55,289 nt of DNA from the NCBI GenBank assembly GCA_013298505.1, contig JAAFHY010000013.1, positions 1-55,289 on the forward strand, in the 5' to 3' direction. Origin of the DNA: Cytophagales bacterium. Its GTDB lineage: Bacteria; Bacteroidota; Bacteroidia; Cytophagales; Cyclobacteriaceae. Position 1 is the first letter of the stretch. Each line of letters begins with the position of its first letter. The position numbers and the translations under genes were made by a program. Below are positions 4,369 to 49,986 of this stretch, piece after piece. The notes beneath the pieces were generated by a model that ran no database searches, was not told where the DNA came from, and saw nothing but the letters and a program-made list of their open reading frames with translations.

Positions 4369-4371
4369 CAA

Positions 4372-30173: not shown

Positions 30174-32540
30174 CTATTCACTTCTCAAACTCTTTGAAGG
30201 ATTAGCTGCTGCTGCCCGCAATGCTTGTGTACTGACAATGACAAGTGTTACAATTAATGTGACCAATCCCGTTAAGGGTAATATCCACCAAGCGATAGTA
30301 GTTCGGTAGTTGTATTGACTTAAGTATTGGTTCATGACCCACCACGACAGCGGTGCGGCCAACACAAAACTGATGATGACTAATTTTGTAAAGTCTTTTG
30401 AAATCAATTGCACAATGCTGCTCGTGCTGGCGCCCATCACTTTGCGGATGCCAATCTCTTTGGTGCGTTGTTCGGCCGTAAAAGTGGCCAATCCAAAAAG
30501 CCCTAAGCTGGTGATGAATAAAGTGAGAAAGGCAAACACCGTTGCCAGTGTGCTCACCAAATTAATGGATTTGTATTTAGATGCAAAATCATCATCTACA
30601 AATTCATATACGAAAGGATAGGAGGGGCTTAGTTTTTTAAACACACTCTCCACTTGGGCAATCGACTCTTTCGTATTTTTTGTTTTGGCCAATCGCAAGG
30701 TTACATAATTGCGATAGCCGTTGTCTAGCATAAAGAAACCTGGACGAACTTCGCTAAAAGGTGAGTCCATAATCACATCATCTATGATTCCTACGATGCT
30801 CCATTTTCTACTCCACATGGTGATTTCAAGCCCGATAGGTTTTTCAACCCCCATCACAGCCAAGCCTGCTTTGTTGATAATCATGGCGCTACTATCGCTC
30901 TTAAATTCTTCTGAAAAATCTCTTCCTTCCAACATTTTTATTCCCATCGTCTTAGCGTAATCGTAGCTGACTTGTACCCGCGAAAACAGAACCGTTTGAT
31001 CTGCCGGTTTGCCGGGCCACTCCAAGGTATTATTTCCGTAAATGGCTGTAACAGGACTGCTGCTGCTGGTCATGCTGGTAATAACACCCGTGGATAATAG
31101 TTCTCGTTTGATCGCATCAAAATTTTTTGTCAGCTCATCATTGCCTTGTATGTTAATAAGGTTTTCCTTGTCATAACCTATAAATCGGTCTTTCACATGG
31201 CCAATTTGCTTGTAGATGACAATCGTTCCGAAAATGAGTATCACTGAAAAAAAGAATTGCAGCACCACTAACACTTGGCGCGGAGTGGCTGCCCCACGGC
31301 CAACCTTTGCGTTTCCTTTCAAAACGGTAACTGGATTAAAAGAAGATAAGTAAAACGCAGGATAGCTTCCGGCCAAAAATCCTGTAATCGCTATGACGAG
31401 AATCGCTACAAGCCATACCCATGGAGAAGAATAATTGATGAATAGCTTTTTGTCAACCAATAAATTGTAAGAGGGTAGCAGTACCTCGACCAAAACAATG
31501 GCTACTACAAAAGCGAGCGCGGCAATTAAAATTGATTCGCCAATAAACTGGCCAATTAACTCTTTTCTTAACGAGCCAACTGTTTTACGAATGCCTACTT
31601 CGCGCGCTCTGCGTTCGCTACGGGCTGTAGCGAGATTCATGAAGTTGATGCACGCAATTAAAAGTACTAGGGCGGCAACTAATGAAAAATACCGAACGAA
31701 CTCAATCATACCCCCGCTCTGCACTCCATTTTCAAACTCTGAGCGTAAGTGCCAATCTTTCATGGGTAATGCAAATAGCTCACGCTTAAAGCCATCGTCT
31801 TTGTTTTGAGTTTTTGGCAAGTCTACTATGGCTTTGTTGATGTCTTCAAACGAAGCACCTTCTTGAAGCTCTATGTAAACGGGATACGATTCATTATCCC
31901 AATTATCTCGGTCGCGCTTCGCCCAATCTTGCTCTCCATAAATCGCCCACGAGGCTAAGTATTGAAACTTAAATGTTGAATTGGTAGGTAAATCTTTTAA
32001 CACACCGGTCACTTTCAACTCAGTGTCATTTTCCAATTTCACCAACTGATTGATAGGGTCAGCATCGCCAAATAATGATTTAGCAAGCGACTGGGTGATA
32101 ACAATGGAACGAGGTGCATCCAACACATTTTCGGCTGAGCCTTTGAGCAATGGAAATTGAAACATTTCTAAAAACTCTGGACTCACCATGTGACCGATTT
32201 GATACACCTTTTTTTCGCCAACCGATAACAAAGAATTGTTCTGCCAATAAGCAATGCACGAATTCTTGATACGCGCATCAAATGTTTTTAGAAATTCGTA
32301 AGGGCCGAGCGGAACTGCTTGTGAGCTACTGATATTGTCAGAGAAAAAATTATTGATATACAACCGACCAAGTTGTTCATTGTTTTTGTGGAAGCGGTCG
32401 TAGGTCACTTCTTCCCACACCCAAAGAAGAATCAGCAAGCTGCACGCAATGCCAATGGCCAAGCCACCGATGTTGATGAAGGAGTAAACCGAATTTCGAG
32501 TGAGGTTTCGAAAGGCAACTTTTAGGTAATTGCGAAACAT
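30174..32540 (-). CDS. Permease D: tandem-FtsX ABC transporter permease with sigma-54-like promoter
   Basis: The protein has 788 residues and starts MFRNYLKVAFRNLTRNSVYS. FtsX motifs are REVGIRKTVGSLRKELIGQF and KEIGIRKVMGASTSSIVQLI; the tail is NPSKSLRSE. With G and H it forms a subgroup that shares the NPSK tail, RSERRAREVG and a WPGKP motif in the second periplasmic domain. It is probably monocistronic, ending against the convergent toxin gene. A -24/-12 element and a three-box upstream element precede it. Confidence 0.9.
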   Translation of the reverse strand: MFRNYLKVAFRNLTRNSVYSFINIGGLAIGIACSLLILLWVWEEVTYDRFHKNNEQLGRLYINNFFSDNISSSQAVPLGPYEFLKTFDARIKNSCIAYWQNNSLLSVGEKKVYQIGHMVSPEFLEMFQFPLLKGSAENVLDAPRSIVITQSLAKSLFGDADPINQLVKLENDTELKVTGVLKDLPTNSTFKFQYLASWAIYGEQDWAKRDRDNWDNESYPVYIELQEGASFEDINKAIVDLPKTQNKDDGFKRELFALPMKDWHLRSEFENGVQSGGMIEFVRYFSLVAALVLLIACINFMNLATARSERRAREVGIRKTVGSLRKELIGQFIGESILIAALAFVVAIVLVEVLLPSYNLLVDKKLFINYSSPWVWLVAILVIAITGFLAGSYPAFYLSSFNPVTVLKGNAKVGRGAATPRQVLVVLQFFFSVILIFGTIVIYKQIGHVKDRFIGYDKENLINIQGNDELTKNFDAIKRELLSTGVITSMTSSSSPVTAIYGNNTLEWPGKPADQTVLFSRVQVSYDYAKTMGIKMLEGRDFSEEFKSDSSAMIINKAGLAVMGVEKPIGLEITMWSRKWSIVGIIDDVIMDSPFSEVRPGFFMLDNGYRNYVTLRLAKTKNTKESIAQVESVFKKLSPSYPFVYEFVDDDFASKYKSINLVSTLATVFAFLTLFITSLGLFGLATFTAEQRTKEIGIRKVMGASTSSIVQLISKDFTKLVIISFVLAAPLSWWVMNQYLSQYNYRTTIAWWILPLTGLVTLIVTLVIVSTQALRAAAANPSKSLRSE

Positions 32541-32563
32541 AGGTTGATGGTTTTCGCACGTAT

Positions 32564-32579
32564 TGCCAAGATTGTTCCA
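32564..32579 (-). promoter_or_regulatory. Sigma-54-like promoter of permease D
   Basis: The minus strand reads TGGAACAATCTTGGCA. This keeps the invariant GG (-25/-24) and GC (-13/-12) with the required 10-bp spacing between them, and fits TGGCACN5TTGCA with few changes. It ends 24 nt before the ATG. Confidence 0.55.
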
Positions 32580-32641
32580 GAATGAAAATTTGCTTATTTA
32601 AGCTGAAAAATAGCTTTTTTAATTGATTTAAAGTTCACTAT

Positions 32642-32671
32642 CGGTCTTTGCCGTCCGATTTCGGTCAGTCG
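32642..32671. promoter_or_regulatory. Three-box CGG/CCG upstream element of permease D
   Basis: The plus strand shows CGGTC, GTCCG and CGGTC boxes at 32642-32646, 32652-32656 and 32661-32665. The same three boxes occur at nearly the same positions (102 rather than 101 nt from the ATG) upstream of permease H; 18 of 30 positions agree. The distance suits an enhancer for a sigma-54 activator. Confidence 0.55.
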
Positions 32672-34737: not shown

Positions 34738-34827
34738 AGTTTACAAATTCGGTTTGAAGTTACAAAATGTTTGAGTGAAGGTGAACAACCTGACCAAAGA
34801 ATTGCCCACCTCCCCCAAACCTTCACC

Positions 34828-35229
34828 TTATCTTGATGCAACAGTTGGATAACTGTAGGTTGCTTTTTCTAGCTGTGCAATCCATTGACCTTCCTTGGGT
34901 GCTATTAGCTTGTAGGTAATGGCCATGTCATCGCTTTTGATTTCCATCCACACCGCATCGTATTGGTCGCGTTGGATTTTATATTTTTTGATGAACCCGC
35001 GGTTGAAGTTTTTGGCTTTGATTCTCTCAGAGCGGATAACGCCAGACTTATCCAAAAAACTTACCATCACTGCCTGGTTCGTGTCATAGCCGTAAATCAA
35101 CTTGACCGTATTTTTCTCCATGCCGGGTACTACCTTGATGGCAGGTTGCTCTTGCGCATGACTTTTTGAGATTGAAAAGACGCTGATAGCTGCTACCAAA
35201 ACGCCCGCTACTAAGATTCTTGTTTTCAT
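34828..35229 (-). CDS. Small secreted beta-rich protein
   Basis: The protein has 133 residues from ATG 35229 (an ATG at 35268 adds 13), with a signal peptide (ILVAGVLVAAISVFSISKSHA). The mature part resembles the beta-sandwich seen in Bacteroidota sorting-domain-like proteins (VKLIYGYDTNQAVMVSFLDK, SGVIRSERIKAKNFNRGFIKK). Function unknown. A CpxR-box-like direct repeat lies 172 nt upstream, so it may be a target of the adjacent two-component system. Confidence 0.65.
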   Translation of the reverse strand: MKTRILVAGVLVAAISVFSISKSHAQEQPAIKVVPGMEKNTVKLIYGYDTNQAVMVSFLDKSGVIRSERIKAKNFNRGFIKKYKIQRDQYDAVWMEIKSDDMAITYKLIAPKEGQWIAQLEKATYSYPTVASR

Positions 35230-35401
35230 ATAGTTTGTTTTTTGTGGTGTTGTTTTAATTTGTTTCATGTGTTAATAATCTATTTTTAATGGTCACATGG
35301 AATGGACTAATTAACATTTCCGGTAGGTGAAAACTTTTATTGCCATTTCACACTACAAATAACGGGAGGGTTGTGCGGTAAGATGTCACCGCGCGGTAAA
35401 C

Positions 35402-35604: not shown

Positions 35605-36291
35605 CTACGCCAACACCAACTTATACCCCGTTCCATGTACCGTCAAAATCACTTTGGGTTGATTGGGATTTGTTTCTACTTTTTGACGGAGGCGTACAAT
35701 GAAGTTATCAACTGTACGCGTGGTGGGTTGTTCATCGTAGCCCCATACTTTCTCTAGTAAGTCATAGCGGCTAACAACTTGATTTTTATTTTGATATAGG
35801 TAAGAAAGTATTTCAAATTCTTTATGAGAGAGTTTTATTTCGATGCCATTTTCTTCTGCGCGGAAGGCAGCAAAATCTATTTTGATTCGACCGATGGTGT
35901 GGCCTTGTGTTTCTTTTAAAGGTGCGGCTTGTCCCCTTCGCAAATGCGCTTTCACGCGCGCCAACAGTTCGCGAACACTAAATGGCTTGGTGATGTAATC
36001 ATCTGCACCCAATTCCAAGCCCAATACTTTATCAATTTCTTCACCGCGTGCGGTGAGTAAAATAATGGGCGTTTCAATGCCTGCTGTTCGCACCGCTTTG
36101 CAAACATCAAATCCCGAAAGCTTGGGCATCATCACATCCAACAAAATTAAATCGTACTGACTTGCTTTAATTTTTGCTAGGCCCTCCGCTCCATCACTGG
36201 CTACTTCTACTGCGTATGATTCTAGCTCTAAATTATCTTTCAAGCCAAGTTGCATGGCGGGTTCGTCTTCAACAATTAGTATTTTGGACAT
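35605..36291 (-). CDS. OmpR-family response regulator
   Basis: This 228-residue regulator has a receiver domain (1-115) and a winged-helix domain (about 135-228). Phospho-acceptor Asp52 (LILLDVMMPKLSG), conserved Thr80 and Lys102 (ITKPFSVRELLARV) are present. The winged helix shows LSHKEFEILSYLYQNKNQVVSR and TRTVDNFIVRLRQKVE. It lies downstream of its kinase with a 112-nt gap that holds an inverted repeat. Candidate binding sites are at 35402-35420 and 38036-38055. Confidence 0.95.
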   Translation of the reverse strand: MSKILIVEDEPAMQLGLKDNLELESYAVEVASDGAEGLAKIKASQYDLILLDVMMPKLSGFDVCKAVRTAGIETPIILLTARGEEIDKVLGLELGADDYITKPFSVRELLARVKAHLRRGQAAPLKETQGHTIGRIKIDFAAFRAEENGIEIKLSHKEFEILSYLYQNKNQVVSRYDLLEKVWGYDEQPTTRTVDNFIVRLRQKVETNPNQPKVILTVHGTGYKLVLA

Positions 36292-36403
36292 GGTTTTTAA
36301 AAAAGAATTTAGAATTCAGAAGATAGAATAAGTACCTAGTCATTAGTGTATTCATGGAATTCTAACTTCTAAATCTGACTTCTATATTCTTGCTTTTAAC
36401 TTA

Positions 36404-37969
36404 TTAACTCAAAGGTAAATAAACCGTAAACACCGAACCTTTCCCCAATTCACTGTTAACAGCAATTTTTCCTTTCTGTTGCTCTACTAGTTGTTTTACC
36501 AATGAAAGTCCCAGACCTGTACCTCTGCTTTTTGCCAAGTCTCCAGTGGATACCCGGTAAAATTTATCGAAGATATGCTTTTGGTCGCTCTTGCTGATAC
36601 CCACGCCTTCATCTTTTACACGAAGCCAGCCGTAGCCATTTTCTTTACCAAGTGTAATCTCAATTCGCTTTTTATCAGAACTATATTTTACTGCATTATC
36701 AATCAAGTTGATGATGATTTCTGTCATCGCCTCTTTGTCGGCCTTTACATTCAATTCTTCACTATCAGTGAGTTGATATTCAAACCCTTTACTTTTCAAA
36801 TGGAAATCGTATGTTTTTAGCACATCTTTGATTTCATGATACAGATTAATGGACTGAGGATGAAGTTTTTTCTTGCCCGCTTCTGTCTGGCTGAAGTTTA
36901 AAATTTTATTGACAATGCCCGTGAGCCGATGGGTTTCTTTGTTAATGATAGAATAATATTCTTGTTTTTTTTCTTCCGATTTCACGCGACCCATCTCAAG
37001 GGTTTCGGCAAACATGCTAATTAGCGCGAGTGGCGTTCGTATTTCGTGCGAAACGTTGGCAACAAAGTCGGATTTGTTTTGAGCGAGTTGTACTTCCTTT
37101 TTCACACTTCTAAAAGCTAATACCAATGCAACGATTAATACTACGTCTAGTCCAATCAACAGGTATAAATTATTAGTGGTGCGGTTGCGTACCAGTTGTT
37201 GCAACGAGGCTTCTTTGGTGCGAATGCCCAACGTATAATTGGGGAAGGCCCATAAATCTTTGGTTAACGATGCAGAGGAAAGCGAAGTGGTGTCTGTTGA
37301 TTCAGTAGAGTAAACTCTCGATTTTCGTTCTTTATCAAAGACAGTTAGTACAAATTGTTCTTTTGAGATTCGTTGCAGCAACGGTGCCACCACATCTTCT
37401 ACAAACAATTCTGAGTCGATGGTAAAACCCACTACTTGCCACGGGGTTGCGTTACCCTCGGCAATAAAAATCAAATGATGAAAGTTGTTGGTATTTTGTT
37501 TTTCTTGGATACTTTCAATTTTCTGAAACCCGCTGTTTCGATACTTGATTAGTTGTGCTATTTGAGCGTTGCTTTTGCGGAGTGATGTTTCAATCAATGG
37601 TCTTAATTGGTCGGTCAGTGCGCTATCCAATGAATAAACAGTTAAGTTAGCTTGTTCCGTTAAAGTATCTACCAAAAAGACCGCTTGAACGGAAGAGTTC
37701 AGCGACAGTAAATTTTTAATAGGTGGGGGAATAAGTTCATTTGCCGCAAATTGATTTTTTCCAGTTTCCGTTTTGGCCATCCAACTGTTTACTGCTGCAT
37801 CGGATGTTTGGTTAACTGAGAATAGAATGGCTTCCAATTGCTTTTGGTAAATACCCTCAATCATTTTTTCGTCTTTTGTCAAAGATGAAATTTCATACAC
37901 CGAAAAGAATAGAGCGGGTATAAGAAAAACGGTGGTGAGGATGAGGGCAATTCTTCGGGTGGCCGACAT
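36404..37969 (-). CDS. Membrane sensor histidine kinase
   Basis: This 521-residue kinase has two transmembrane helices (about 7-29 and 268-286) enclosing a periplasmic sensor of about 240 residues with no recognised fold. The HisKA box is FVANVSHEIRTPLALI with His308; the ATPase part has NLIDNAVKYS (N box), VKDEGVGIS (G1) and GTGLGLSLVK (G2). No clear HAMP domain is seen after the second helix. It is the first gene of the pair with the OmpR-type regulator and is 102 nt downstream of permease E. In this group a TCS beside permeases often senses envelope stress, but here that is inference. Confidence 0.94.
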   Translation of the reverse strand: MSATRRIALILTTVFLIPALFFSVYEISSLTKDEKMIEGIYQKQLEAILFSVNQTSDAAVNSWMAKTETGKNQFAANELIPPPIKNLLSLNSSVQAVFLVDTLTEQANLTVYSLDSALTDQLRPLIETSLRKSNAQIAQLIKYRNSGFQKIESIQEKQNTNNFHHLIFIAEGNATPWQVVGFTIDSELFVEDVVAPLLQRISKEQFVLTVFDKERKSRVYSTESTDTTSLSSASLTKDLWAFPNYTLGIRTKEASLQQLVRNRTTNNLYLLIGLDVVLIVALVLAFRSVKKEVQLAQNKSDFVANVSHEIRTPLALISMFAETLEMGRVKSEEKKQEYYSIINKETHRLTGIVNKILNFSQTEAGKKKLHPQSINLYHEIKDVLKTYDFHLKSKGFEYQLTDSEELNVKADKEAMTEIIINLIDNAVKYSSDKKRIEITLGKENGYGWLRVKDEGVGISKSDQKHIFDKFYRVSTGDLAKSRGTGLGLSLVKQLVEQQKGKIAVNSELGKGSVFTVYLPLS

Positions 37970-38035
37970 TTAAGCGAGGATGTTATGAGTCAATTACTCA
38001 AAGGTCGCAAAAGTTTTGGTTAAGATATGGCGCTG

Positions 38036-38055
38036 GATTGTAATAAATTGTAATC
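38036..38055. promoter_or_regulatory. CpxR-box-like direct repeat, copy 2
   Basis: GATTGTAAT-AAAT-TGTAATC gives GTAAT-N5-GTAAT with a 10-bp period and agrees with the copy at 35402 at most positions, in the same orientation. It lies 66 nt upstream of the kinase ATG, a good place for autoregulation of the two-component operon. Confidence 0.5.
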
Positions 38056-38071
38056 AGCAATGCCAGCTTAA

Positions 38072-40519
38072 TCATTCGCTACGCAAACTCTCCGTTGGAT
38101 TACTGATGGCTGCTTTAATAGCTTGAGAACTCACGGTTGTCAGTGCAATGGCTATTGCTGCCAATCCCACCAATCCAAAAATCCACCAGTTTATTTCGAT
38201 TCTGAAGGCAAAATCTTGTAGCCACTGATGGATGCCGTACCAGGCAAGGGGAGTGGCAATTACCAACGCAATTAATATCAACACCACAAAGTCTTTCGAT
38301 AAGAGGCCCACGATACTTTTTACCGAAGCGCCTAATACTTTTCGAATTCCAATTTCTTTGGTGCGCGATTGTGCGGCATAGGAGGCAAGACCCCAAAGAC
38401 CCAAGCAGGAAATGAACATAGCGAGACCAGAAAATACTTTGAAGAGACTGAACAGCCGTTGCTCGGCTTTATAAAACGAATCAATTTGCTCATCCAGAAA
38501 CTTGTATGAAAAAATACCCTCTGGGTAAGCAGCCTTCCAAGCGGCTTCAATAGCTGCAGTGGTTTCTGGAAAATTACTACCGGCTTCAATTTTAATGCCT
38601 GCTTGTTCGTATTCACGCGCATTAGGTGTAATCAAGGTTGGCTTGATGGCTTCATGCAATGAACCTGTATTGAAGTCAGCTACTACGCCTACAATCTCCA
38701 CATTACCACCATTCATTCCAATCCAAATTTTTTGGCCAATAGCAGCTTCGTTTGATTCAAAATTCATTTCGCGAATAAGTGTTTCGTTTACGATAGATTT
38801 CATTAGTCGCTGTTCTCTCGCAAGCGAGTGGGAGGAAAAAGTGGTGTCGTTCGCTTCTAAAAAACGACCAGCTAACAGGTTAATATCGTACATCTTACAA
38901 AAATTATCATCTGCCATTATCAATGTTAATGAATGACGGTCTTGGTCATCGCCCTTTGTACGGGTCATAATGGTTCCCCAATGGCCTGCATTGCTAGGCG
39001 TGGCTGTTGCAAATGAAACATCTTTTACGGCCGCTATTTTTGTAAGTTCATTTTTGAATAGCTGGCTCTTGTTTATTCTAGGTTGTATCTCAACATTAAT
39101 CACATTGTCTTTGTTGAAGCCAAGGCTTTTGCTCTTCATAAAGCTTACTTGTTGTGCAATTAATATTACGACCATCAGCAAACCCACTGAGATAGTGAAC
39201 TGGGCTACTACTAATCCTTTGCGTAGCCAGTTTGAGCCATCTCCTGTGATGGAAATTTTAGTGCCCTTCAGCGTAAGCGCAGGATTAAATTTTGAAATTA
39301 CCCAGGCTGGATAGATTCCTGCCAAAATTCCCGTTACGATAATCCCAACTAAAATTAATGATAGCAAAGCGGGTGAACTCAGAAGATCGAACGAAATCCT
39401 TTTATCTAGCAATGAATTGAGATAAGGCAAACAAAGTTGACAGAGTGCTATCGCCAAAATTCCAGAGATCAACGTAAGTATCCATGCTTCTGATAGAAAT
39501 TGAGCAATCAAATTGAATTTTCCTGCACCCACTGATTTACGAACACCTACTTCCTTTGCTCGGGTGAAGGCTTGCGCAGTAGAAAGATTCATGAAGTTGA
39601 TACAAGCCAGTGCCAGCACGGCCGCACCAATCGCTCCAAAAAACCAAAGCCAGCTTTTAGAAACCGATTGAATCCATTGCCCGCCACCTCCAAAACTTTC
39701 GTTGAAGTGTATGTCATTCAATGGCTGTAGTTCAAAATACCAAGTAGAGTATTTCGCACTGTTAGGGTCGGAGTTGAGGTGCTTGTTAGCGATGGCCGTG
39801 AGCTGCGATTGAATGATTTTTAAATTAGCATTTTTGGGTATTGATACTAGCGTTTCCGTACCCGATACATAAGTCCATCCATCTAAGTTGGACTTTAGAA
39901 AGTTTTCGGTGTAAGCATGTGATACAAAAATATTGACAGGTAAGTGTGTGTTGGGCGGCATATCCTTAACAATAGCGCTCACCGTAAACTCAAATGCTTC
40001 CCCACTTTTAAAGCTAATCGTTTTGCCAATAGGGTCTTCACTACCAAAGAATTTTTGTGCCGTTGATTCGGTAAGAATCGCCTGATACGGGTGGCGAAGT
40101 GTTTTGTATAAATCGCCCCTGATGGTTTCTAGTTTGAACAGTTCCAGGAACTCCGGCTCTACGGCCAAGATTTTGTCTTCCAAAAATTTCTTTTGTGACG
40201 ATACCTCTACGATTTTTGTGTATACCGGATGCGCAAAACTCACGTTTTCGATTCCACTCATTTCTGTGCGCACAGCATTGGCTAGCGGAAATGGAGTCGA
40301 AAAGTGATACTCCACCTTACCAGACTCATCCCACTTAGATATAATTCGATATGTGCGGTCTGCTTTTTCATGGTAAGCATCGAAACTCAACTCATACTGA
40401 ATAAAGAGCGTAATCAAAATGCAAACAGTAATGCCGAGCGTTAGCCCTATGATGTGTAATGAAGTGTTTAACTTCTGCCGGCTCAAGTGGCGGAAGACGA
40501 TTTTGAGATGATGTAACAT
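38072..40519 (-). CDS. Permease E: tandem-FtsX ABC transporter permease
   Basis: The protein has 815 residues from ATG 40519 (MLHHLKIVFRHLSRQKLN). FtsX motifs are KEVGVRKSVGAGKFNLIAQF and KEIGIRKVLGASVKSIVGLL; the tail is NPTESLRSE. The first periplasmic domain is the longest of the eight, with a Gly-rich SFGGGGQW segment just before the first FtsX block. It lies upstream of the kinase gene in the same direction, and may be part of the same stress-response unit. A TAATTTTG -7 box precedes it. Confidence 0.9.
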   Translation of the reverse strand: MLHHLKIVFRHLSRQKLNTSLHIIGLTLGITVCILITLFIQYELSFDAYHEKADRTYRIISKWDESGKVEYHFSTPFPLANAVRTEMSGIENVSFAHPVYTKIVEVSSQKKFLEDKILAVEPEFLELFKLETIRGDLYKTLRHPYQAILTESTAQKFFGSEDPIGKTISFKSGEAFEFTVSAIVKDMPPNTHLPVNIFVSHAYTENFLKSNLDGWTYVSGTETLVSIPKNANLKIIQSQLTAIANKHLNSDPNSAKYSTWYFELQPLNDIHFNESFGGGGQWIQSVSKSWLWFFGAIGAAVLALACINFMNLSTAQAFTRAKEVGVRKSVGAGKFNLIAQFLSEAWILTLISGILAIALCQLCLPYLNSLLDKRISFDLLSSPALLSLILVGIIVTGILAGIYPAWVISKFNPALTLKGTKISITGDGSNWLRKGLVVAQFTISVGLLMVVILIAQQVSFMKSKSLGFNKDNVINVEIQPRINKSQLFKNELTKIAAVKDVSFATATPSNAGHWGTIMTRTKGDDQDRHSLTLIMADDNFCKMYDINLLAGRFLEANDTTFSSHSLAREQRLMKSIVNETLIREMNFESNEAAIGQKIWIGMNGGNVEIVGVVADFNTGSLHEAIKPTLITPNAREYEQAGIKIEAGSNFPETTAAIEAAWKAAYPEGIFSYKFLDEQIDSFYKAEQRLFSLFKVFSGLAMFISCLGLWGLASYAAQSRTKEIGIRKVLGASVKSIVGLLSKDFVVLILIALVIATPLAWYGIHQWLQDFAFRIEINWWIFGLVGLAAIAIALTTVSSQAIKAAISNPTESLRSE

Positions 40520-40543
40520 ATTTTTTAATTCAATATTAAAATT

Positions 40544-40551
40544 CAAAATTA
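40544..40551 (-). promoter_or_regulatory. -7 promoter box of permease E
   Basis: The minus strand reads TAATTTTG, an exact TAnnTTTG match, 24 nt upstream of the ATG. A TTG lies 23 nt further upstream, slightly longer than the usual 19. This contrasts with the sigma-54-like promoters of D and H. Confidence 0.4.
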
Positions 40552-40650
40552 TTTCAGGTTATAAGTTCCATGCTCAAGTGGCACAACTTTCAAACTTGCA
40601 ACCTGAAACCAGTAATCTTACACATTGCCTTCTATTAATTACCCGCTTAC

Positions 40651-43089
40651 CTACTCACTTCTCAGGCTTTCAACTGGATTGCTCATGGCTGCTTTAATGG
40701 CCTGAGTACTCACGGTAACCAGTGCAATTAACACAGCTATTATTCCAGCAATTCCAAAAATCCACCAGGTGATTTCAGTCTGATAGGCAAAGCCCTGTAG
40801 CCACGTTTTCATTGCATACCATGATAGGGGAGTGGCAATTGCAATGGAAAGAATCACCAAGACCAAGAAATCTTTTGATACGAGTTTACTGATTTGAAAT
40901 ACACTGGCGCCCAATACTTTGCGTATACCGATTTCTTTAATGCGCTGCTCTACGGTAAATGTTGCTAACCCAAATAATCCAAGACATGCAATGAAAATGG
41001 CCAGCGTAGATGCAACTGTAAAGAGGGTTCCGTATTGCTGCTCTGTTTTATAGAGCTGATTGTATTTGTCGTTGAGGAAGTAATAATCAAAAGGATTGCC
41101 CGGAAAATATTTTTTGTAGAGGTTGTTAAGTGCAGCTACATTGTTTTGAATATTTTGGGTAGCAATCTTAGCCGTGTAAAAACCTCCATTGTTTTTGGGT
41201 AGAAAAATAATCGGATCAATGGCTTGCCGTACAGATAGGTGATGATAGTCTGTCACCACACCTATCAATTCATATTCTTTATTTTCAAAAATTATTTTTT
41301 GACCAATGGCTTCTTCGTTAGATAAGAACCCAAGTTGTGCCACCGCTTTTTCATTAGCCATCAATTGATTGATTTCACTCCACGGTCGATTGCCTACTTC
41401 TTCTGTAAATTCTTTTCCGGCCGCAATAGGTATTGAGTAAGTTTTGAAATAATTGTATCCCGCCATCATCATCGCGTAACCAAGCTTTTCATCGCCCGGC
41501 ATGGGATTTTGTTTTGTGACCCCAGATGTAGAGTAATTGTAGCCATCTACCGGCACGCTGGCCGTGCGGCAATAATTTTCTACGAATCCAAATTGCGCCA
41601 ATTCATTTTCAAAACCAGTTGCACGATTTTTAAAAGTCTCGTCTCTTCCAATTTCTGGCCCAACCATTACCAATAATTGGGTCAAGTCCATCCCTAAGTC
41701 TTTGTTTTGCAGAAAATGTAATTGCCGTTGCAAGATGATGGTGCAGCCGATGAGCGCAATGGAAACACTGAATTGAAACACTACCAGTGTTTTGCGCAAC
41801 CAAATACCTTCTCCTGATTTGCTGAAGATGCCTTTCAAAGTTTCAGATGGTTTGAACGATGACAACGCGAACGAGGTGTAAGCACCTGAGGCTACGGAGC
41901 CAATGACAATCAAGCCAAATCCTATCAGCCATAGATTGTTTTGTTGAAATACAGCAAACGATAATTGCTTGCCGATGAAATAATTGTAAACAGCCTGCAA
42001 CAGATTTACCAACGCTAGAGCTAAAAGAAAAGCAACAACGTTCATCGTGAGCGACTCACCTAAAAACTGTCGTATTAATTGCGATTTACTGGCACCCGCT
42101 ACTTTACGTATGCCGACTTCTTTTGCGCGTTTTAGCGCGCTTGCAGTTGAGAGGTTGATATAGTTAAACCAAGCGATTACCAATATTAAAATAGAAATTC
42201 CAGTAAGGAGATAGATGAAACCCAAATTGCCAGTAGTTGGCATTTTATCAGATAATGATTTTCCTAAATGCTGATTAGCCAGCGGTTGAAGCAAAAAGGT
42301 GTCTGTATTTTCAGGGGCCAATTTCTTTTTAAGTTCAATCGCCTTTGTTTCTACGATGCTTGGGTCGACCTCGGGTTGCAAGATGAAGTAAGTCTTTAGC
42401 CATTGCGAATTAAGGCCATCAAGATTTGCCCAATCATTTCCGTTAGCATTGGCTTTGTTTGCCAATGTTTGAAGCGAAAAAAGAATATCAAGTCGCAGGT
42501 CAGAATTTTCGGGCATATCTGCGTAAATGGCAGTTACAGTATAGAGTGTAGTGCCAAATTGATTGTTAAGAGTGACGACTTTACCAATTGGATTTTGAGT
42601 ACCAAAGTATTTTTTAGAAATCGATTCTGATAACGCAACTGAGTTTGGGCTTTTTAATGCGTTAATGTCTCCACTTTTTAACAGAAAGGTGAAGACATCA
42701 AAAAAATTACTTTCCGCGTAAGCGAAGTTACCTTCGCGAAATGATTGAGCTTTTTCGGGTGAATCTCCAACGCTCACCACACCATCACCTAGGTTAGAAC
42801 CAAGTGCTAATCGACAAAAGTCTTTTATCTCTCCAATCTGTTGTTTGCCAATGATGGCCAGACCAGGCGCGGTGTCATCCCACATATTGCCTTTTTGTGA
42901 TTGCGTAATCAGCTTATAGATATTAGGCAGGTTGGTATGAAACCCGTTTACACTTTTTTCAAAACTGATGTATTGAAAAATCAGAATGAAAGCAGCCATG
43001 CCTAACGATAAGCCAAGCAGGTTGATAAACGTAAAGACATAGTTCTTGCGCAGGTTGCGAAGAGCGGTAAAAAGATAATTTTTTAGCAT
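40651..43089 (-). CDS. Permease F: tandem-FtsX ABC transporter permease
   Basis: The protein has 812 residues (MLKNYLFTALRNLRKNYVFT). FtsX motifs are KEVGIRKVAGASKSQLIRQF and KEIGIRKVLGASVFQISKLV; the tail is NPVESLRSE. The first periplasmic domain differs from D, G and H (HTNLPNIYKLITQSQKGNMW). It starts 6 nt after the permease G stop, so it is the last gene of the H-G-F operon although it belongs to a different subgroup. Confidence 0.9.
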   Translation of the reverse strand: MLKNYLFTALRNLRKNYVFTFINLLGLSLGMAAFILIFQYISFEKSVNGFHTNLPNIYKLITQSQKGNMWDDTAPGLAIIGKQQIGEIKDFCRLALGSNLGDGVVSVGDSPEKAQSFREGNFAYAESNFFDVFTFLLKSGDINALKSPNSVALSESISKKYFGTQNPIGKVVTLNNQFGTTLYTVTAIYADMPENSDLRLDILFSLQTLANKANANGNDWANLDGLNSQWLKTYFILQPEVDPSIVETKAIELKKKLAPENTDTFLLQPLANQHLGKSLSDKMPTTGNLGFIYLLTGISILILVIAWFNYINLSTASALKRAKEVGIRKVAGASKSQLIRQFLGESLTMNVVAFLLALALVNLLQAVYNYFIGKQLSFAVFQQNNLWLIGFGLIVIGSVASGAYTSFALSSFKPSETLKGIFSKSGEGIWLRKTLVVFQFSVSIALIGCTIILQRQLHFLQNKDLGMDLTQLLVMVGPEIGRDETFKNRATGFENELAQFGFVENYCRTASVPVDGYNYSTSGVTKQNPMPGDEKLGYAMMMAGYNYFKTYSIPIAAGKEFTEEVGNRPWSEINQLMANEKAVAQLGFLSNEEAIGQKIIFENKEYELIGVVTDYHHLSVRQAIDPIIFLPKNNGGFYTAKIATQNIQNNVAALNNLYKKYFPGNPFDYYFLNDKYNQLYKTEQQYGTLFTVASTLAIFIACLGLFGLATFTVEQRIKEIGIRKVLGASVFQISKLVSKDFLVLVILSIAIATPLSWYAMKTWLQGFAYQTEITWWIFGIAGIIAVLIALVTVSTQAIKAAMSNPVESLRSE

Positions 43090-43095
43090 GATAGA

Positions 43096-45447
43096 TTATT
43101 CACTGCGTAAACTTTTTGATGGATTAGCTGTAGCAGCTTTGAGTGCCTGTGTACTCACGATAGCCAAAGCAAACAGCAGAGCAGTAGCTCCGGCCACAAC
43201 AATCGCCCACCACGGAAAATCAATGCGATAGGGATATCGTTCTAAAAAAGATGTCAACAGCCACCACGAAAAAGGTGTAGCGAACAGAAATGAGATACCT
43301 ACCAGCAATGAGAACTCTCGAGAAATGAGTGCCACCAAGCTTGATACCGAAGCGCCCATTACTTTGCGGATGCCAATTTCTTTTGTCCGCTGCTCGGCTG
43401 TAAAGGCGGCCAATCCAAATAAACCCAAACCAGTAATTAAAATAGCCAGCGTAGCAAACAAATTGGCTAAGGTGCTGATGAGGTTAATGGCTGTATACTT
43501 TTTATTGAACTGCACATCTACAAATTGGTAGGTGAATGGATAGGCTGGATTGTGCTTTTTAAAGACTTCTTCAATCTTTTTTATTGCCGATGGCAGATCA
43601 CTGGTTTCTTCTAAGCGAAGTGTAACCGAACTAGCCCACTCTGGGAAGTAAGTGAAAAACATGGGCGATGCTTGCCGATAAGGTGATCCCATTAGCACAT
43701 TATCAAGGACGCCAATTATTTTACTTTTTCTATCGCCCCAATAGACTACCTCAGTTCCCAGCGTTTCTTTTAAGTTCATGAGGTCAGCCGCTGCTTTATT
43801 GATAAGCACTGATGCGGTATCAGCGTCTCCTGTAAAGTCTCTACCTTCTAAAATTTTAATACCCATTGTTTTGGTGTAGTCTAACTCTGTAGCAATCGTT
43901 GCGAACAGAACCTTTTCTTCTTCAGGTTTGCCGGGCCAACTCACAAAATTGTTTGAATAAACATCGGTGATGGGGCTGTTTGATTTGGTAATCGAACTAA
44001 CAGCACCAGTTGCCATCACTTCATTCCGAATGGTTCTAAATTTTTTTCCAATGTCATCTGAGTAGGGTATCATGATCAGATTTTTTTGGTCGTAACCCAA
44101 ATCACGTTTTTTAACATGGCTTATTTGTTCTGATACCACCAGCGTACTCACGATTAAAAGCGTAGCAAAAAAGAATTGAAGTACAACTAACGCCTGGCGT
44201 GGTGTGGTGCCACTCTTGCTTACCTGCAATTTTCCTTTCAACACCTTTACCGGATTGAAAGAAGAAAGATAAAGAGCCGGATAGCTTCCGCTGACAATGC
44301 CTGTGAGTAGCACTATACCAAAGCAAGCCGACCAAAATAGTGGAGAGCTGTAATCTAAAAAGAGTTTTTTCTGCGTAAGGTCATTATAAAGTGGAAGTGA
44401 AACTTCTACCAGCACCAGCGATAATGCAAAGGCAAGAAAAGTTATCATAATAGATTCGCCCAGAAATTGAGCAATCAATTCTTTTCTGCGAGAACCAACA
44501 CTTTTACGCACACCTACTTCGCGTGCTCTTCGTTCACTTCGGGCGGTAGCTAAATTCATAAAATTGATGCACGCAATCACCAGAATAAATATGGCAATGG
44601 CAGAAAAGCCAATTACGTAGTCGATGGTTCCACCTGATTCCTTTCCGTTTTCAAAAGAAGAGTGTAGCCGCCACCGCTCCATGGGATGCAAAAAGAATTC
44701 GCGAGGAACATCGGTTTGACCCTTTTTTATAAGTAGCCCTTTAATTTTTTCGTTTACATCTTGCAGAGCAGCTCCCGGTTGCAACTCAATAAATACTTGA
44801 AAACTATAATCACCCCAATTGCTGTTCTCATTAATTTGTGCAGACTGTAGTTTATGCGACATCAAGCAATCAAACTCAAATGAAGAATTCGCTGGAACAT
44901 CTTCTAACACACCTGTTACAGTTAGTTCTTTTGCGTTATCAATCTTTACTGATTTCCCAACTGCATCTTCAGTTCCGAATAATGCTTTAGCTGTTGATAC
45001 GGTTAGCACAATGCTGTTAGGGTCATCCAAAACTTTCTCGGCCTGTCCGTATCGCAACGGGAATTGAAACATCTCTAAAAATTCTTCGCCCACGTAGAAG
45101 CTTTTTTTGTTTATTCGCTGGTTGCTTGCCGTCAGTAAACTTTCGCCCCCCCAGTTTGTAATGGTTGTATTTTTGATACGACTGTCTTCATTTCTGATTT
45201 CTAGATATGAAGGGTAGGGCACTGATTCGAATGTGCTTACTTTGCCCTGAATGGTAGCGTTGACCCACAGTTGCGATAGGCGATCTAATTTTGGTTGAAA
45301 CCGATCGTACGAAAGTTCATCGAAGACCCAAAGAGCAATTAGCACGCTGCAAGTCAGCCCAACGGCCAATCCAACAATATTAATCGAAGAATAAACGGCA
45401 TTTCTGGTTAGGTTTCTAAAAGCGACTTTTAAATAATTACGTAGCAT
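43096..45447 (-). CDS. Permease G: tandem-FtsX ABC transporter permease
   Basis: The protein has 783 residues (MLRNYLKVAFRNLTRNAVYS). FtsX motifs are REVGVRKSVGSRRKELIAQF and KEIGIRKVMGASVSSLVALI; the tail is NPSKSLRSE. It is closest by eye to D and H, sharing the WPGKPEE motif in the second periplasmic domain and ARSERRAREVG. It lies 31 nt after H, consistent with a tandem duplication within one operon. Confidence 0.9.
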   Translation of the reverse strand: MLRNYLKVAFRNLTRNAVYSSINIVGLAVGLTCSVLIALWVFDELSYDRFQPKLDRLSQLWVNATIQGKVSTFESVPYPSYLEIRNEDSRIKNTTITNWGGESLLTASNQRINKKSFYVGEEFLEMFQFPLRYGQAEKVLDDPNSIVLTVSTAKALFGTEDAVGKSVKIDNAKELTVTGVLEDVPANSSFEFDCLMSHKLQSAQINENSNWGDYSFQVFIELQPGAALQDVNEKIKGLLIKKGQTDVPREFFLHPMERWRLHSSFENGKESGGTIDYVIGFSAIAIFILVIACINFMNLATARSERRAREVGVRKSVGSRRKELIAQFLGESIMITFLAFALSLVLVEVSLPLYNDLTQKKLFLDYSSPLFWSACFGIVLLTGIVSGSYPALYLSSFNPVKVLKGKLQVSKSGTTPRQALVVLQFFFATLLIVSTLVVSEQISHVKKRDLGYDQKNLIMIPYSDDIGKKFRTIRNEVMATGAVSSITKSNSPITDVYSNNFVSWPGKPEEEKVLFATIATELDYTKTMGIKILEGRDFTGDADTASVLINKAAADLMNLKETLGTEVVYWGDRKSKIIGVLDNVLMGSPYRQASPMFFTYFPEWASSVTLRLEETSDLPSAIKKIEEVFKKHNPAYPFTYQFVDVQFNKKYTAINLISTLANLFATLAILITGLGLFGLAAFTAEQRTKEIGIRKVMGASVSSLVALISREFSLLVGISFLFATPFSWWLLTSFLERYPYRIDFPWWAIVVAGATALLFALAIVSTQALKAATANPSKSLRSE

Positions 45448-45478: not shown

Positions 45479-47848
45479 TTATTCAGAGCGCAGGCTTTTA
45501 CTTGGATTTGTCACAGCTGCCTTCAACGCTTGTGCACTTACAATCAACAAAGCTAATAGTAAAGCAAACGCACCTACGCCTGCTAAAACCCACCAAGCAA
45601 CTTGAATGCGATATGTATAGCGTTCTAAAAAACTATTTAAAAACCACCAGGCGAAAGGCGCGGCAATCACAAATGCAATAATGACTAGTCGCGAAAAATC
45701 TTTTGATATAAGCATCACCAAACTACTCACCGATGCGCCCATTACTTTACGAATGCCTACCTCTTTGGTACGCTGCTCTGCCGTAAAGGCAGCTAACCCA
45801 AACAAACCTAAACAAGTGATAAGGATCGCAAGCCCCGCAAAGATTCCTGCCAAGCGACTGATGAGGCTAATGGTTTGAAATTTCTTTTCAAAATCAACAT
45901 CTGCAAAGCGGTATTGAAAGGGATAGTTGGGATTTATTTTTTTGAAGACACTTTCAACTTTAGCAAGAGAGGCTTTTAAATCTTCAGTTTTATTTAACCG
46001 CAGCGTAACAGTACTACTCCAACTCGGTATAAACACCATGGTCAATGGCTCTACGGGCGTGTAGGGCGAATCCATAACCACATCTGCAATTACACCTACG
46101 ATCTCATATTGCTGGCCTCCAAACATTTCAATTTTTTGGCCAATGGGTTTTTCCATGCCCATCATTTTCACTGCGGCTTGGTTTACGATTACTGCGCTGG
46201 AGTCACTTTTGAAATCGCGCGAAAAATCACGCCCTTCAATGATTTTGATGCCCATGGTTTCGGTGTAATCATATTCGGTGGCGATGGTGGTAAAAGCAGT
46301 ACGTGCCTCGTCTGTTTTGCCTGGCCATTTTACTTCGTTGCTCGAAAAACTAGAAGTGATGGGACTGTTGCTTTTGCAAACCGATTTTACAGCGCCCGTA
46401 CGCACCAATTCTTCACGGATAGTTTTAAAGTTGGTTTCTAACTCTCCGTTTGTCCAAATTTGGATTAAGTTTTCGCGGTCATAACCCATGTCGCGATTTT
46501 TAACGTGTTGTATTTGTTGGTAAATCACAATCGTGCCCGCAATCAGGAAAATGGAGAACACAAACTGAAGCACTACCAATACTTGCCGAGGTGTGCTAGC
46601 GCCCTTACCCACGTTTACTTTTCCTTTTAAAACTTTTACCGCTTCAAATGAAGATAGGTAGAATGAAGGGTAGCTGCCGGCCAAAATGCCAATGAATAGT
46701 GTAAGCGCGATGGCAGCCAGCCAAATCATTGGATTTGAATAGCTGATAGCGATAGATTTCTTTACCAGTACGTTGTAGCTGGGAAGCGCAAGTTCAACAA
46801 TCACAATCGCTATCACAAAAGAGATAGCCGTGATGGCAATCGATTCACCTAAAAATTGAAAGATTAATTCTTTTCTGCGTGAGCCTATGCTTTTGCGAAT
46901 ACCCACTTCGCGTGCCCGACTTTCGCTGCGCGCGGTAGCTAAGTTCATGAAATTGATGCAGGCAATAATGAGCACAAAAATTGCGATGGCAGTAAACAGT
47001 CGTACATAAACAATTTGACCTCCCGTGTTTTTGCCTTCTTCAAAGTTAGAATGCAAGCGCCACTTCGACATGGGGTGAAGGAACAGTTTTGAGGTGGGTG
47101 CTTTGGGATTATTGTCTTTTAAGATGGTGGCAATAGACTTGTCCACTTCTTCTTTGGTAGCTCCTTCTTGCAGCAGGGCATACATTTGAAAGCTGTTGTT
47201 GTCCCAACTATCTTTTGATCTTCCAATCCATGATTGTGTTTTTTCGTAATAGCTGAAGGGCAGCACATAGTCAAATTCTAAAAATGATTGCTCGGGCACG
47301 TCTTTAACTACACCCGATACTTTTAATTCATCGCCATTGTCTATTTTAATAGTTTGGTTGAGTGCGCTGCCATTTTTAAAAAATGATTTGGCTGTAGATT
47401 CAGTAATTACAATTTTGGTGGGCTCGTTTAGTGCTGTGGCTGGGTCTCCTTCAATCATTTGGTAACTGAAGACTTGGAAAAAATCTTCACTTGCGCTGAT
47501 CCCATATTTGCTCAACCGATTTTCCCCTACCTGCAATAAATTGCCCTCACCCCAATTGGTCATCACCACACTTTTTATTTTGCTCGACTTTTGCGGAAGT
47601 ACTTCCTTGAGTTTATAGGGCATGCTATTGCCAGTGCCAATGTGCCCGTTCCATTCTTGGCTTTGGTAGAGCCGGTAGATGTTGTTATAGTTGGCATGAA
47701 ACTTATCGTACGCATATTCATCAGCCACCCATAAAAAAATCAGGATGCTGGCAGCTAGACCCACGGCTAGGCCACCTATGTTAATGATAGAATAAGTCTG
47801 GTTTTTCAGTAAACTCCTGAAAGCGATTTTGATGTAATTGCGCAGCAT
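45479..47848 (-). CDS. Permease H: tandem-FtsX ABC transporter permease, first of the H-G-F operon
   Basis: The protein has 789 residues from ATG 47848 (MLRNYIKIAFRSLLKNQTYS); a TTG at 47857 is less likely. FtsX motifs are REVGIRKSIGSRRKELIFQF and KEVGIRKVMGASVSSLVMLI (the only copy with KEV in the second motif); the tail is NPSKSLRSE. It heads the operon with G and F and carries the same upstream promoter architecture as permease D. Confidence 0.9.
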   Translation of the reverse strand: MLRNYIKIAFRSLLKNQTYSIINIGGLAVGLAASILIFLWVADEYAYDKFHANYNNIYRLYQSQEWNGHIGTGNSMPYKLKEVLPQKSSKIKSVVMTNWGEGNLLQVGENRLSKYGISASEDFFQVFSYQMIEGDPATALNEPTKIVITESTAKSFFKNGSALNQTIKIDNGDELKVSGVVKDVPEQSFLEFDYVLPFSYYEKTQSWIGRSKDSWDNNSFQMYALLQEGATKEEVDKSIATILKDNNPKAPTSKLFLHPMSKWRLHSNFEEGKNTGGQIVYVRLFTAIAIFVLIIACINFMNLATARSESRAREVGIRKSIGSRRKELIFQFLGESIAITAISFVIAIVIVELALPSYNVLVKKSIAISYSNPMIWLAAIALTLFIGILAGSYPSFYLSSFEAVKVLKGKVNVGKGASTPRQVLVVLQFVFSIFLIAGTIVIYQQIQHVKNRDMGYDRENLIQIWTNGELETNFKTIREELVRTGAVKSVCKSNSPITSSFSSNEVKWPGKTDEARTAFTTIATEYDYTETMGIKIIEGRDFSRDFKSDSSAVIVNQAAVKMMGMEKPIGQKIEMFGGQQYEIVGVIADVVMDSPYTPVEPLTMVFIPSWSSTVTLRLNKTEDLKASLAKVESVFKKINPNYPFQYRFADVDFEKKFQTISLISRLAGIFAGLAILITCLGLFGLAAFTAEQRTKEVGIRKVMGASVSSLVMLISKDFSRLVIIAFVIAAPFAWWFLNSFLERYTYRIQVAWWVLAGVGAFALLLALLIVSAQALKAAVTNPSKSLRSE

Positions 47849-47871
47849 AGGTAACAATTTGCTGCCACTAG

Positions 47872-47887
47872 CTCCAAATCAGTGCCA
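47872..47887 (-). promoter_or_regulatory. Sigma-54-like promoter of the H-G-F operon
   Basis: The minus strand reads TGGCACTGATTTGGAG: a perfect TGGCAC -24 box, then TTGG aligned with that of permease D, but GA instead of GC at -13/-12. Its -24 box is at exactly the same distance (37-39 nt) from the ATG as in D. The weak -12 box lowers confidence. Confidence 0.45.
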
Positions 47888-47950
47888 ATGATTAGAATCG
47901 CCTTATTTTGTTAGAAAAGAGGGTATTTTAGAATAGTAGCTAATCAATTA

Positions 47951-47980
47951 CGGACGGGTGTGTCCGCAATCGGTCAATCA
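47951..47980. promoter_or_regulatory. Three-box CGG/CCG upstream element of permease H
   Basis: CGGAC, GTCCG and CGGTC boxes lie at 47951-47955, 47962-47966 and 47971-47975; the first two form an inverted repeat. The element is 102 nt from the ATG, against 101 nt in permease D, and overlaps the last codons of kup. Confidence 0.55.
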
Positions 47981-49971
47981 ATATGCCCGTGATAGCGTAG
48001 CTCTTTTTCTCTTTCCAGCTCTTCTTTTTCGCGTTTGATGCGCACCTTAGCTGGAGGCCCCACCATAATGGGTACGCGCTCTACTTCTACGTTTGCCAAT
48101 TCAAGGCCATACATTTCTTCGGTAGAGAGGCTGTGTTTTTTGATGAACCGATACCCTTGAATAATCAAATTATCAAAGGATGAAATTTCGCTATCAACAG
48201 AGGCCAACGAATGCAACATGATAAACTTAAAATCGGCAGGCATGCTGTGCTTGCGCAACGAATCGTAATGGCTCACCATATCGATCTCGGCATTCTCGGC
48301 CATGTCGTGCAAGATTTTGGCAAACAATAAGTTAACCCGATGATCGGCTTTGAATCCTAATTTGATTCTGATGAAAAAACACTTTTTGGGAATGATCGTG
48401 TCAACCGAGTATTTAGAGGTATACGGACTGTCAACTGTATCGACATGCACAAACCAATAGGTATCGGCTTTTTTGGGTCGCTTCTTAAAAATTGAATAGA
48501 TGATATTGGAATCAATATAGCGTTTGCTATCGGCCACGGCCATGTAAACCAAATTGGTGGCTTCCCTCGGTATGCTAGTATCAGATTGTAAATCTTCAAT
48601 GAGCGGAACGTAATGTTTTAAATCAACAAACTCGGTATGCCGATCGCGCAATTCGCGGGCACGCAACAAAATAAACATCATCAAGAAAAATGTAAATGCA
48701 ATAGCAAATGAAAACCAACCACCATGGGTAAACTTACTCAAGTTAGAAATTAAGAAAGCGCCCTCTACTGTAAAAAACAAAACAGCTAAACCAGTAGAAC
48801 GAATAGTTGATTTTTTTGCCGTTGAAAAATAGTACACCAATAGCGAGGTAGTCATCAACATATCAAACGTGATGGCAAGCCCGTAAGCCGCTTGCATATC
48901 ATCAGACTTTTTAAAATAGAGCACTACGATAATGCAGCCAAACATCAAAATCCAATTAATGGCCGGAATGTAAATTTGCCCTTTTACCGTGCTTGGATAG
49001 CGCACGCGGGTAGCCGGCCATAGTTTCAATTTGATGGCCTCGTTCACTAATGTGAATGTGCCCGATATCAATGCTTGACTGGCAATGATGGTTGCCATGG
49101 TGGCGATGATTACACCAAAAATCAAAAGTGATTGTGGGATGATGGCAAAAAATGGAACAGCACCATCCAGTGTTTTGCCATTGTATTCGCTTAATAACCA
49201 CGCGCCTTGTCCAAAGTAACTGAGCAGTAAACATACTTTCACAAATCCCCAGCCCAATCGGATGTTTGATTTACCACAATGACCTAAATCAGAATACATC
49301 GCTTCCGCTCCTGTTGTGCAGAGGAAAATAGCGCCTAATATCCAAAACCCTCCTGGGTATTTGATCAGCAAATTCATTCCATAAACAGGATTAATTGCTT
49401 TGAGCACACTGATGTTGTCGAACAAATGGTAAGCACCAATCGCACCGATAAACAAAAACCAAATCAACATTACCGGGCCAAATGTTTTTCCTACTACGCT
49501 GCTACCAAATTGTTGAAACACAAAAAGCGCCACTAAAATGATGATTACAATGGTGATGATGGTGTTAGTGGAGATGGTAGGCATGAGCGATTTCAAACCT
49601 TCCACGGCTGATGTCACACTCATGGCAGGCGTAATGAAACCATCTGCGATCAATGTGCAACAGCCGATGATGGCTGGAAAAATAACCCAACTGGCTTTGT
49701 ATCTCCTTACTAAAGCATACAATGCAAAAATTCCACCCTCACCCTTGTTATCAGCACTTAGTGCGAGGTAAACATATTTGATTGAGGTAATGATTGTTAG
49801 CGTCCAAAACACACATGATAATCCGCCCAAAATCAAATCTTCGGTAACGATGTTCTTGCCCACAATAAATCCAAAAGTATAAATGGGCGATGTGCCAATG
49901 TCACCGTAAATGATACCCATCGCCACCAGTACGCCAGCAACCGAGAGTTTATGATGTTTGTTTGAGTCCAC
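47974..49971 (-). CDS. kup: KUP-family potassium transporter
   Basis: Kup imports potassium with protons across the inner membrane. The protein has 665 residues with about twelve helices and a cytoplasmic C-terminal tail (about 460-665). Family signatures are MGIIYGDIGTSPIYTFGF near the N-terminus, NKGEGGIFALYALVRR and GFITPAMSVTSAVEGL. The start is GTG 49971, as no ATG precedes MGIIYGD in frame. It follows ndh by 15 nt, so the two are probably cotranscribed. Confidence 0.95.
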   Translation of the reverse strand: MDSNKHHKLSVAGVLVAMGIIYGDIGTSPIYTFGFIVGKNIVTEDLILGGLSCVFWTLTIITSIKYVYLALSADNKGEGGIFALYALVRRYKASWVIFPAIIGCCTLIADGFITPAMSVTSAVEGLKSLMPTISTNTIITIVIIILVALFVFQQFGSSVVGKTFGPVMLIWFLFIGAIGAYHLFDNISVLKAINPVYGMNLLIKYPGGFWILGAIFLCTTGAEAMYSDLGHCGKSNIRLGWGFVKVCLLLSYFGQGAWLLSEYNGKTLDGAVPFFAIIPQSLLIFGVIIATMATIIASQALISGTFTLVNEAIKLKLWPATRVRYPSTVKGQIYIPAINWILMFGCIIVVLYFKKSDDMQAAYGLAITFDMLMTTSLLVYYFSTAKKSTIRSTGLAVLFFTVEGAFLISNLSKFTHGGWFSFAIAFTFFLMMFILLRARELRDRHTEFVDLKHYVPLIEDLQSDTSIPREATNLVYMAVADSKRYIDSNIIYSIFKKRPKKADTYWFVHVDTVDSPYTSKYSVDTIIPKKCFFIRIKLGFKADHRVNLLFAKILHDMAENAEIDMVSHYDSLRKHSMPADFKFIMLHSLASVDSEISSFDNLIIQGYRFIKKHSLSTEEMYGLELANVEVERVPIMVGPPAKVRIKREKEELEREKELRYHGHID

Positions 49972-49986
49972 GTGGGAAAATTAAGG

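Follow-up and report, generated by a model that had tools for sequence, protein, structure and literature searches.

A putative sigma-54-type promoter common to FtsX/MacB-like permease operons and an HlyD-ATPase operon in a Cytophagales bacterium

The DNA element upstream of permease H in a Cytophagales bacterium and its copy upstream of permease D are very probably a sigma-54-type promoter driven by an NtrC-family activator, most likely the activator encoded on contig C68 of the same genome; the operons of H and D and a small number of others for permeases would then be switched on with an ATPase/adaptor operon. From the sequence elements, their conservation and spacing, the order of genes, and the presence of RpoN and activators, all of which were observed directly, we infer the following events. 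RNA polymerase with RpoN would bind TGGCAY...TNG at -24/-12, and an NtrC-family activator would bind two tandem palindromes that start approximately 88 and 68 bp upstream of the TGG. Phosphorylation of the activator by its partner kinase would then lead to opening of the complex. The likely activator is a 461-amino-acid response regulator, encoded on C68 with its kinase and divergently from an HlyD-ATPase-permease operon, and its action would turn on H and D, as well as a few further permease operons, together with that one ATPase/adaptor operon.

The window, which is the whole stretch of 55,289 nucleotides that was analyzed, is contig C35 (JAAFHY010000013.1) of a 3.96-Mb genome (GCA_013298505.1). 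It encodes eight permeases, designated A to H, all on the minus strand, as are the genes and promoter elements of H and D located below, and every one has MacB_PCD and FtsX domains. Permease H (45482..47848, ATG at 47848) has two MacB_PCD and two FtsX stretches and heads a putative operon, delimited by gene orientation and spacing, whose remainder (35605..45447) comprises permeases G, F, and E, a histidine kinase (36404-37969), and an OmpR-type regulator (35605-36291). Permease D (30174..32540, ATG at 32540) is the first gene downstream of the D promoter. H and D have doubled MacB_PCD/FtsX stretches and no other domain at an E value of ≤0.001; domain searches at this threshold found no fused ATPase domain in either protein, which sets them apart from MacB exporters. 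No Rfam match at the gathering score and no tRNA were found across the window.

The -24/-12 element of H (47872..47887; TGGCACTGATTTGGAG) keeps the G at -13 and has A in place of C at -12. Upstream of it are palindrome 1 (TGACCG-ATTG-CGGACA, 47961..47976), which overlaps the end and stop codon of the upstream Kup gene, and palindrome 2 (GTCCG-TAAT-TGATT, 47942..47955), 20 bp from palindrome 1 center to center. The right half of palindrome 2 is degenerate in H; the palindrome is clearer in relatives as GTTCA-N4-TGAAC. The D element (32564..32579; TGGAACAATCTTGGCA) has the canonical GC at -13/-12, with palindromes TGACCG-AAAT-CGGACG at 32652..32667 and GACCG-ATAG-TGAAC at 32633..32646. The general form of the tandem palindromes is GACCG-N4-CGGAC and GTYCR-N4-YGAAC, 20 bp apart. 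The matches to the promoter profile span 47871-47980 (70.1 bits) for H and 32559-32670 (53.2 bits) for D.

Relative to the ATG, TGGCAC of H and TGGAAC of D are both at -39, with TTGG at -29 in both and also at -40 in H. TGACCGA and CGGAC are at -128 and -118 in H and at -127 and -117 in D, and AAATAAG, which reads CTTATTT on the plus strand, is at -60 in H and -59 in D. These positions agree with the identical placement of the TGGCAC/TGGAAC and TTGG boxes, and with the 1-nucleotide offsets of the upstream element and of the shared CTTATTT word, that an earlier note on this DNA had reported; a recount of the matches at the upstream element likewise gave 18 of 30 positions. The same note had described that element as three boxes. 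The boxes are real, but they are better read as half-sites of two tandem palindromes, four half-sites in all, the arrangement seen in the activator-linked sites described below.

The shuffled-sequence test that had been proposed for the D/H pair gave a mixed outcome. The best 30-nucleotide window at a small offset had 19 of 30 matches, lay away from the boxes, and was reached in 0.75% of 2,000 shuffles, whereas a second statistic gave a P value of 0.31, with four of the six other window permeases equaling or exceeding D. The pattern TGACCGANNNCGGAC, which was derived from H and D themselves, occurs without mismatch only at these two places in the 3.96-Mb genome, and with up to two mismatches it was no more common than its reversed control (128 versus 188). 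A rough sigma-54 matrix, applied to 47 permease rows (one gene appearing twice), gave P values of <0.05 in five: D (0.015), L071, L059, and two others. The value for H was 0.165. The L071 and L059 sites matched the promoter profiles later. The putative element thus stands at the head of some operons and is no general feature of these permeases. By itself the pairwise match of D and H is weak and proves little, and relatives were therefore examined; it is conservation among them that lifts the resemblance above what chance would be expected to give.

Full-length or nearly full-length orthologues of H were present in 19 other genomes of the genus, at 63 to 95% identity. Within the 150 bp before the start, 12 of the 19 have CGGAC-N6-GTYC and TGGCAY-N5-TNG or close variants. 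One orthologue (L093) has a degenerate element, and in six another gene ends just upstream of the start; at five of these six loci (L120, L125, L126, L130, and L132) the element lies in front of a permease encoded further upstream. A search of 62 genomes of the genus with the strict pattern CGGACN6GTYC-N40..68-TGGCAYN5TNGAA found 16 sites, distributed over 15 genomes and all directly preceding a permease ATG, and the reversed pattern found none. Twenty-seven genus promoters could be aligned, of which 26 precede a permease and the other an alpha/beta hydrolase beside a permease operon. The search expression prescribed CGGAC, TGG, and a spacing of about 71 to 83, and within these limits the distance from CGGAC to TGG was 77 in 14 promoters, 76 in 6, 78 in 4, 79 in 2, and 75 in 1. 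The A of TGGCAY was found in 27/27, and the C after TGG, the T at -15, and the G at -13 in 26/27 each, some of these promoters having come from the strict search, whose pattern fixes G-13 and the AA that follows. Conservation of the boxes upstream of orthologues, which the earlier note had offered as the check on its proposal, is thus found at a near-fixed distance.

A sequence-only profile built on the 27 promoters (R1) had a match in 61 of the 62 genomes at an E value of ≤0.1. The -24/-12 pattern alone occurred at 27 places in the 62 genomes versus 8 for the control; a permease follows at 12 of the 27 but not at the remaining 15, most of which are within open reading frames (ORFs), and this counts against the promoter reading. 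The canonical pattern TTGGCAYNNNNTTTGCW is nearly absent, with 2 places in 19 genomes versus 6 for the control. A second profile (R2), built from 58 of 69 promoters, matched at an E value of ≤0.001 in only 47 of 148 genomes and 30 of 79 genera in an order-wide sample, which also counts against that reading. Conservation, strong in the genus and extending beyond it, supports the idea that the operons have in common a -24/-12-like promoter and, upstream of it, an element for an activator. Locus L134 carries two very similar promoter copies (3073-3187 and 4111-4225) approximately 1 kb apart, one preceding an alpha/beta hydrolase gene and the other a permease operon.

Profile searches matched 40 further loci, 24 directly before a permease, 15 before an HlyD gene, and 1 otherwise. 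At the last (L219, site 4350-4458) an opposite-strand ORF of 442 amino acids, perhaps an insertion, lies between the promoter and the permease. At the 15 HlyD-type loci, genes for an ABC ATPase and a permease come after the HlyD gene wherever the contig extends far enough, and the operon is divergent from a gene for an activator of 461 to 478 amino acids with a kinase gene behind it. The window's own genome carries this HlyD-ATPase-permease locus too, with the same promoter, on contig C68 (L059). The operon there encodes an HlyD-family protein and an ABC_tran ATPase, and the divergent activator gene is paired with a kinase gene. Its 461-amino-acid product is a response regulator with a receiver, a Sigma54_activat AAA+ domain, and HTH_8, a Fis-type helix-turn-helix, the domain set of the NtrC family. 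The activator-linked site reads, with small variations, TGTCCG-N4-CGGACA-N5-GTTCA-N4-TGAAC, with its palindromes 20 bp apart, and the promoter reads TTGGCAY-N5-TTGGC, the C at position 6 and TTGGC being present in 16/16.

The arrangement extends outside the genus. In the named genomes that the HlyD alignment retrieved, a related activator gene is upstream at 75 of 80 loci, and three of the other five loci begin at a contig end. Profile matches with E values of <1e-3 were found at 63 of the 80 on forward DNA and at 0 of 80 on reversed DNA, a control that is only partly independent because at least eight loci (L250, L251, L255, L256, L258, L265, L267, and L305) overlap genomes used earlier, some in the profile alignment. 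Inspection of 21 of the 80 loci revealed both palindromes (near -87 and -67 from TGG) in nine, only the outer in nine, and, by expression search, neither in three (L300, L307, and L312), the last of these counts being a point against the reading. Loci with both include Chryseolinea serpens, Dawidia soli, a Fulvivirga, and two Kordia; those with the outer palindrome only include an Algoriphagus, three of four Balneolaceae-type loci, three Chitinophaga, and records named Flavihumibacter and Kapabacterium. Related HlyD loci are found as far away as Chryseolinea and Kordia and, with partial agreement, Chitinophaga.

The sigma-54 contact loop of the C68 activator is GSFTDA rather than GAFTGA, and G[AS]FTDA was found in all 73 activator loops that were read across the 80 HlyD loci (L239-L318). 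GAFTDA is among the loop variants expected to stay active (PMC4641369), and activator loops have been described at the -12 DNA (PMC9770992). Six activators of the window's genome (L001-L006) have loops of G[AS]FTDA (two), G[AS]FTGA (three), and GSFTSA (one).

The connection of the C68 activator to H and D is drawn from the shared site and not from gene position, because sequence comparison found no relatives of the C68 activator in the window or in 20 permease neighborhoods of relatives. The same comparison found no relatives of the C68 ATPase or HlyD protein there. An earlier scan of the neighborhoods for activators relied on a GAFTGA expression, which misses GAFTDA; the sequence comparison likewise found none. 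It is possible that a paralogous activator encoded on contig C57 could serve H and D instead.

A regulator closer at hand is the OmpR-type protein of the H operon itself, and the boxes might be its binding site at an ordinary sigma-A promoter, giving autoregulation. The kinase and regulator are within the putative H operon, and relatives of both are found in L129 and L134, as is a relative of the kinase in L138, which ends there. However, this explanation is unlikely: a relative of the regulator is present in only 2 of 20 permease neighborhoods, and the same sites precede the HlyD operon that is divergent from a sigma-54 activator. Direct repeats are usual for sites of OmpR-type regulators, whereas the distance and inverted symmetry of the sites suit an enhancer better. 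Furthermore, inspection by eye of the stretch from TGGCAY to the start codons found no conserved TAnnTTTG box.

The -24 region fits the sigma-54 reading, with TGGCAY exact in H and TGGAAC in D (in the 27-promoter set TGG was fixed by the search expression), and the genome has one Sigma54_DBD match (185 bits) with the RpoN box ARRTVAKYRE. The base at -12 is usually not C, which is unusual for sigma-54 and counts against that reading. Ten base pairs after the GG of the -24 box D has GC and H has GA, and the 27 genus promoters have G-13 in 26 and C-12 in 3, the base at -12 otherwise being A in 18, G in 5, and T in 1. It is G in the activator-linked promoters. Across the 80 HlyD loci it is G in 63, A in 8, T in 4, and C in 3, with 2 lacking a site; the expression used in that count fixes G-13, which is therefore no evidence there, whereas G-13 was left free in the activator-linked (16) and groES counts.

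The groES promoters of the lineage bear on this point. The genus groES promoters have TGGCAY and G-13 in 16/16 loci counted, with A in 6, T in 6, and C in 4 at -12, so that 12 of the 16 lack the C. Those of other families have G-13 in 11/11, with A in 4, C in 4, and T in 3. Thus, C is present in only 8 of the 27 groES loci counted across the order (L336-L365, 30 loci, from which two, L341 and L359, were dropped and one, L360, lacked TGGCAY). Because groES promoters show the same relaxation, the missing C at -12 seems to characterize the sigma-54-type promoters of this lineage rather than to be a defect of H. The earlier note had treated the weak -12 (GA, not GC) as a caveat, and H does have GA; the feature appears to be one of the lineage and not of H in particular. 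A role for the G[AS]FTDA loop in the missing C was considered and dropped because the groES promoters also lack the C.

The mostly missing C, which is normally conserved, might instead indicate that TGGCAY...TNG is recognized by another sigma factor or DNA-binding protein. This is quite unlikely, given that GC is found at -13/-12 in D and in the HlyD promoters of two Kordia loci and one Chitinophaga locus and that the regulator beside the HlyD promoter is a sigma-54 activator by its domains. In addition, the genus groES promoters carry the same TGGCAY and G-13 with a relaxed -12, and in Flavobacterium psychrophilum groES is among the genes listed with a sigma-54-type motif (PMC9723704). That the palindrome at the kup end is a terminator or RNA hairpin of the upstream gene, resembling D incidentally, is scarcely credible. 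In the window palindrome 1 does overlap the stop codon of kup, and several relatives have kup just upstream of the element, but the same palindromes also occur where kup is absent, in front of D and of HlyD operons among other places, at approximately the same distance to TGGCAY.

With a sigma-54-type promoter and an NtrC-family activator as the preferred reading, the sites in the window's own genome can be considered as a possible regulon. The nine best R2 matches there were H, the HlyD operon, D, permeases on contigs C185 and C1, an ABC ATPase on C159, another site within the C68 operon, a place inside an ORF, and the region before the paralogous C57 activator. Eight of these nine precede exporter genes or the second activator gene, which would fit one exporter regulon. 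The C57 locus (L043:2878-4245, L327) encodes a paralogous activator-kinase pair and has the palindrome GTTCATTTTTGAAC and TTGGCAC upstream (E value of 0.05), a possible case of auto- or cross-regulation.

The genome, as represented by the window and L040-L072, has 39 distinct permease ORFs of >700 amino acids, and 36 of these are without a related ATPase gene in the same stretch, some stretches ending at contig ends; only the three C68 permeases have one. Two further stretches, L049 and L068, have an ATPase gene among other ORFs. That most permeases lack an ATPase gene nearby and appear to be coregulated with one ATPase operon therefore suggests that one ATPase may be shared by many permeases. 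A more extensive hypothesis, which we put forward tentatively and consider somewhat doubtful as a whole, is that one sigma-54 activator coexpresses a single HlyD protein and ABC ATPase with several ATPase-less FtsX/MacB-like permease operons, that interchangeable permeases draw on the one ATPase, and that the sigma-54 promoters of this lineage gave up C-12.

The putative system is like known sigma-54 (RpoN) promoters with NtrC-family enhancer-binding proteins in its TGGCAY at -24, G at -13, upstream palindromes, genomic RpoN, and divergent response-regulator/kinase pair at the HlyD operon. It differs from them in that C-12 is mostly replaced and the spacing between activator site and promoter is near-fixed (75 to 79 bp in 27 promoters). 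MacB/LolCDE-type ABC exporters are alike in having MacB_PCD and FtsX, and the activator-linked operon encodes an HlyD-family adaptor and a separate ATPase; H and D differ from such exporters in their doubled MacB_PCD/FtsX, in lacking a fused ATPase, and in having no related ATPase gene within the window.

A general link between sigma-54 and FtsX-like permeases is not new. Sigma-54 control of FtsX-like permeases (COG0577) was predicted from promoter statistics in Bacteroidia and two other classes in 2025, and its authors regard this as the first evidence for the link (PMC12316311). The prediction concerns the same kind of target gene, sigma factor, and phylum as here, whereas the available parts of that report give no activator, activator site, spacing, or shared-ATPase regulon. 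SM4, the sigma-54-type motif of F. psychrophilum, is a similar case of -24/-12 promoters in the same phylum, and reporter mutagenesis was used to test the SM4 and SM5 sites upstream of one gliding operon; the selection of SM4 genes presented includes chaperones, proteases, and gliding and envelope functions and names no FtsX permease (PMC9723704). Sigma-54 has also been discussed as a controller of the bacterial exterior (PMC3162934). The present combination of activator, site, and operons was not found in a literature search on sigma-54 with Bacteroidetes or FtsX/MacB that covered mostly titles and the beginnings of abstracts and few subscription papers. The analysis assigns a likely activator, site, and target operons to a large uncharacterized group of Bacteroidota permeases. 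Two questions thereby become testable: what powers permeases that have no nearby ATPase gene, and how much departure from GC at -13/-12 a sigma-54 promoter can tolerate and still function.

Two features of gene order were also observed around the H operon. The NDH2-Kup order upstream of the H element (47974-51330) recurs in several members of the genus. The kinase/regulator pair is followed (33739-35268) by genes for a small protein of 146 amino acids and a protein with beta-galactosidase-type sugar-binding domains, and both are likewise found behind the pair in loci L129 and L134.
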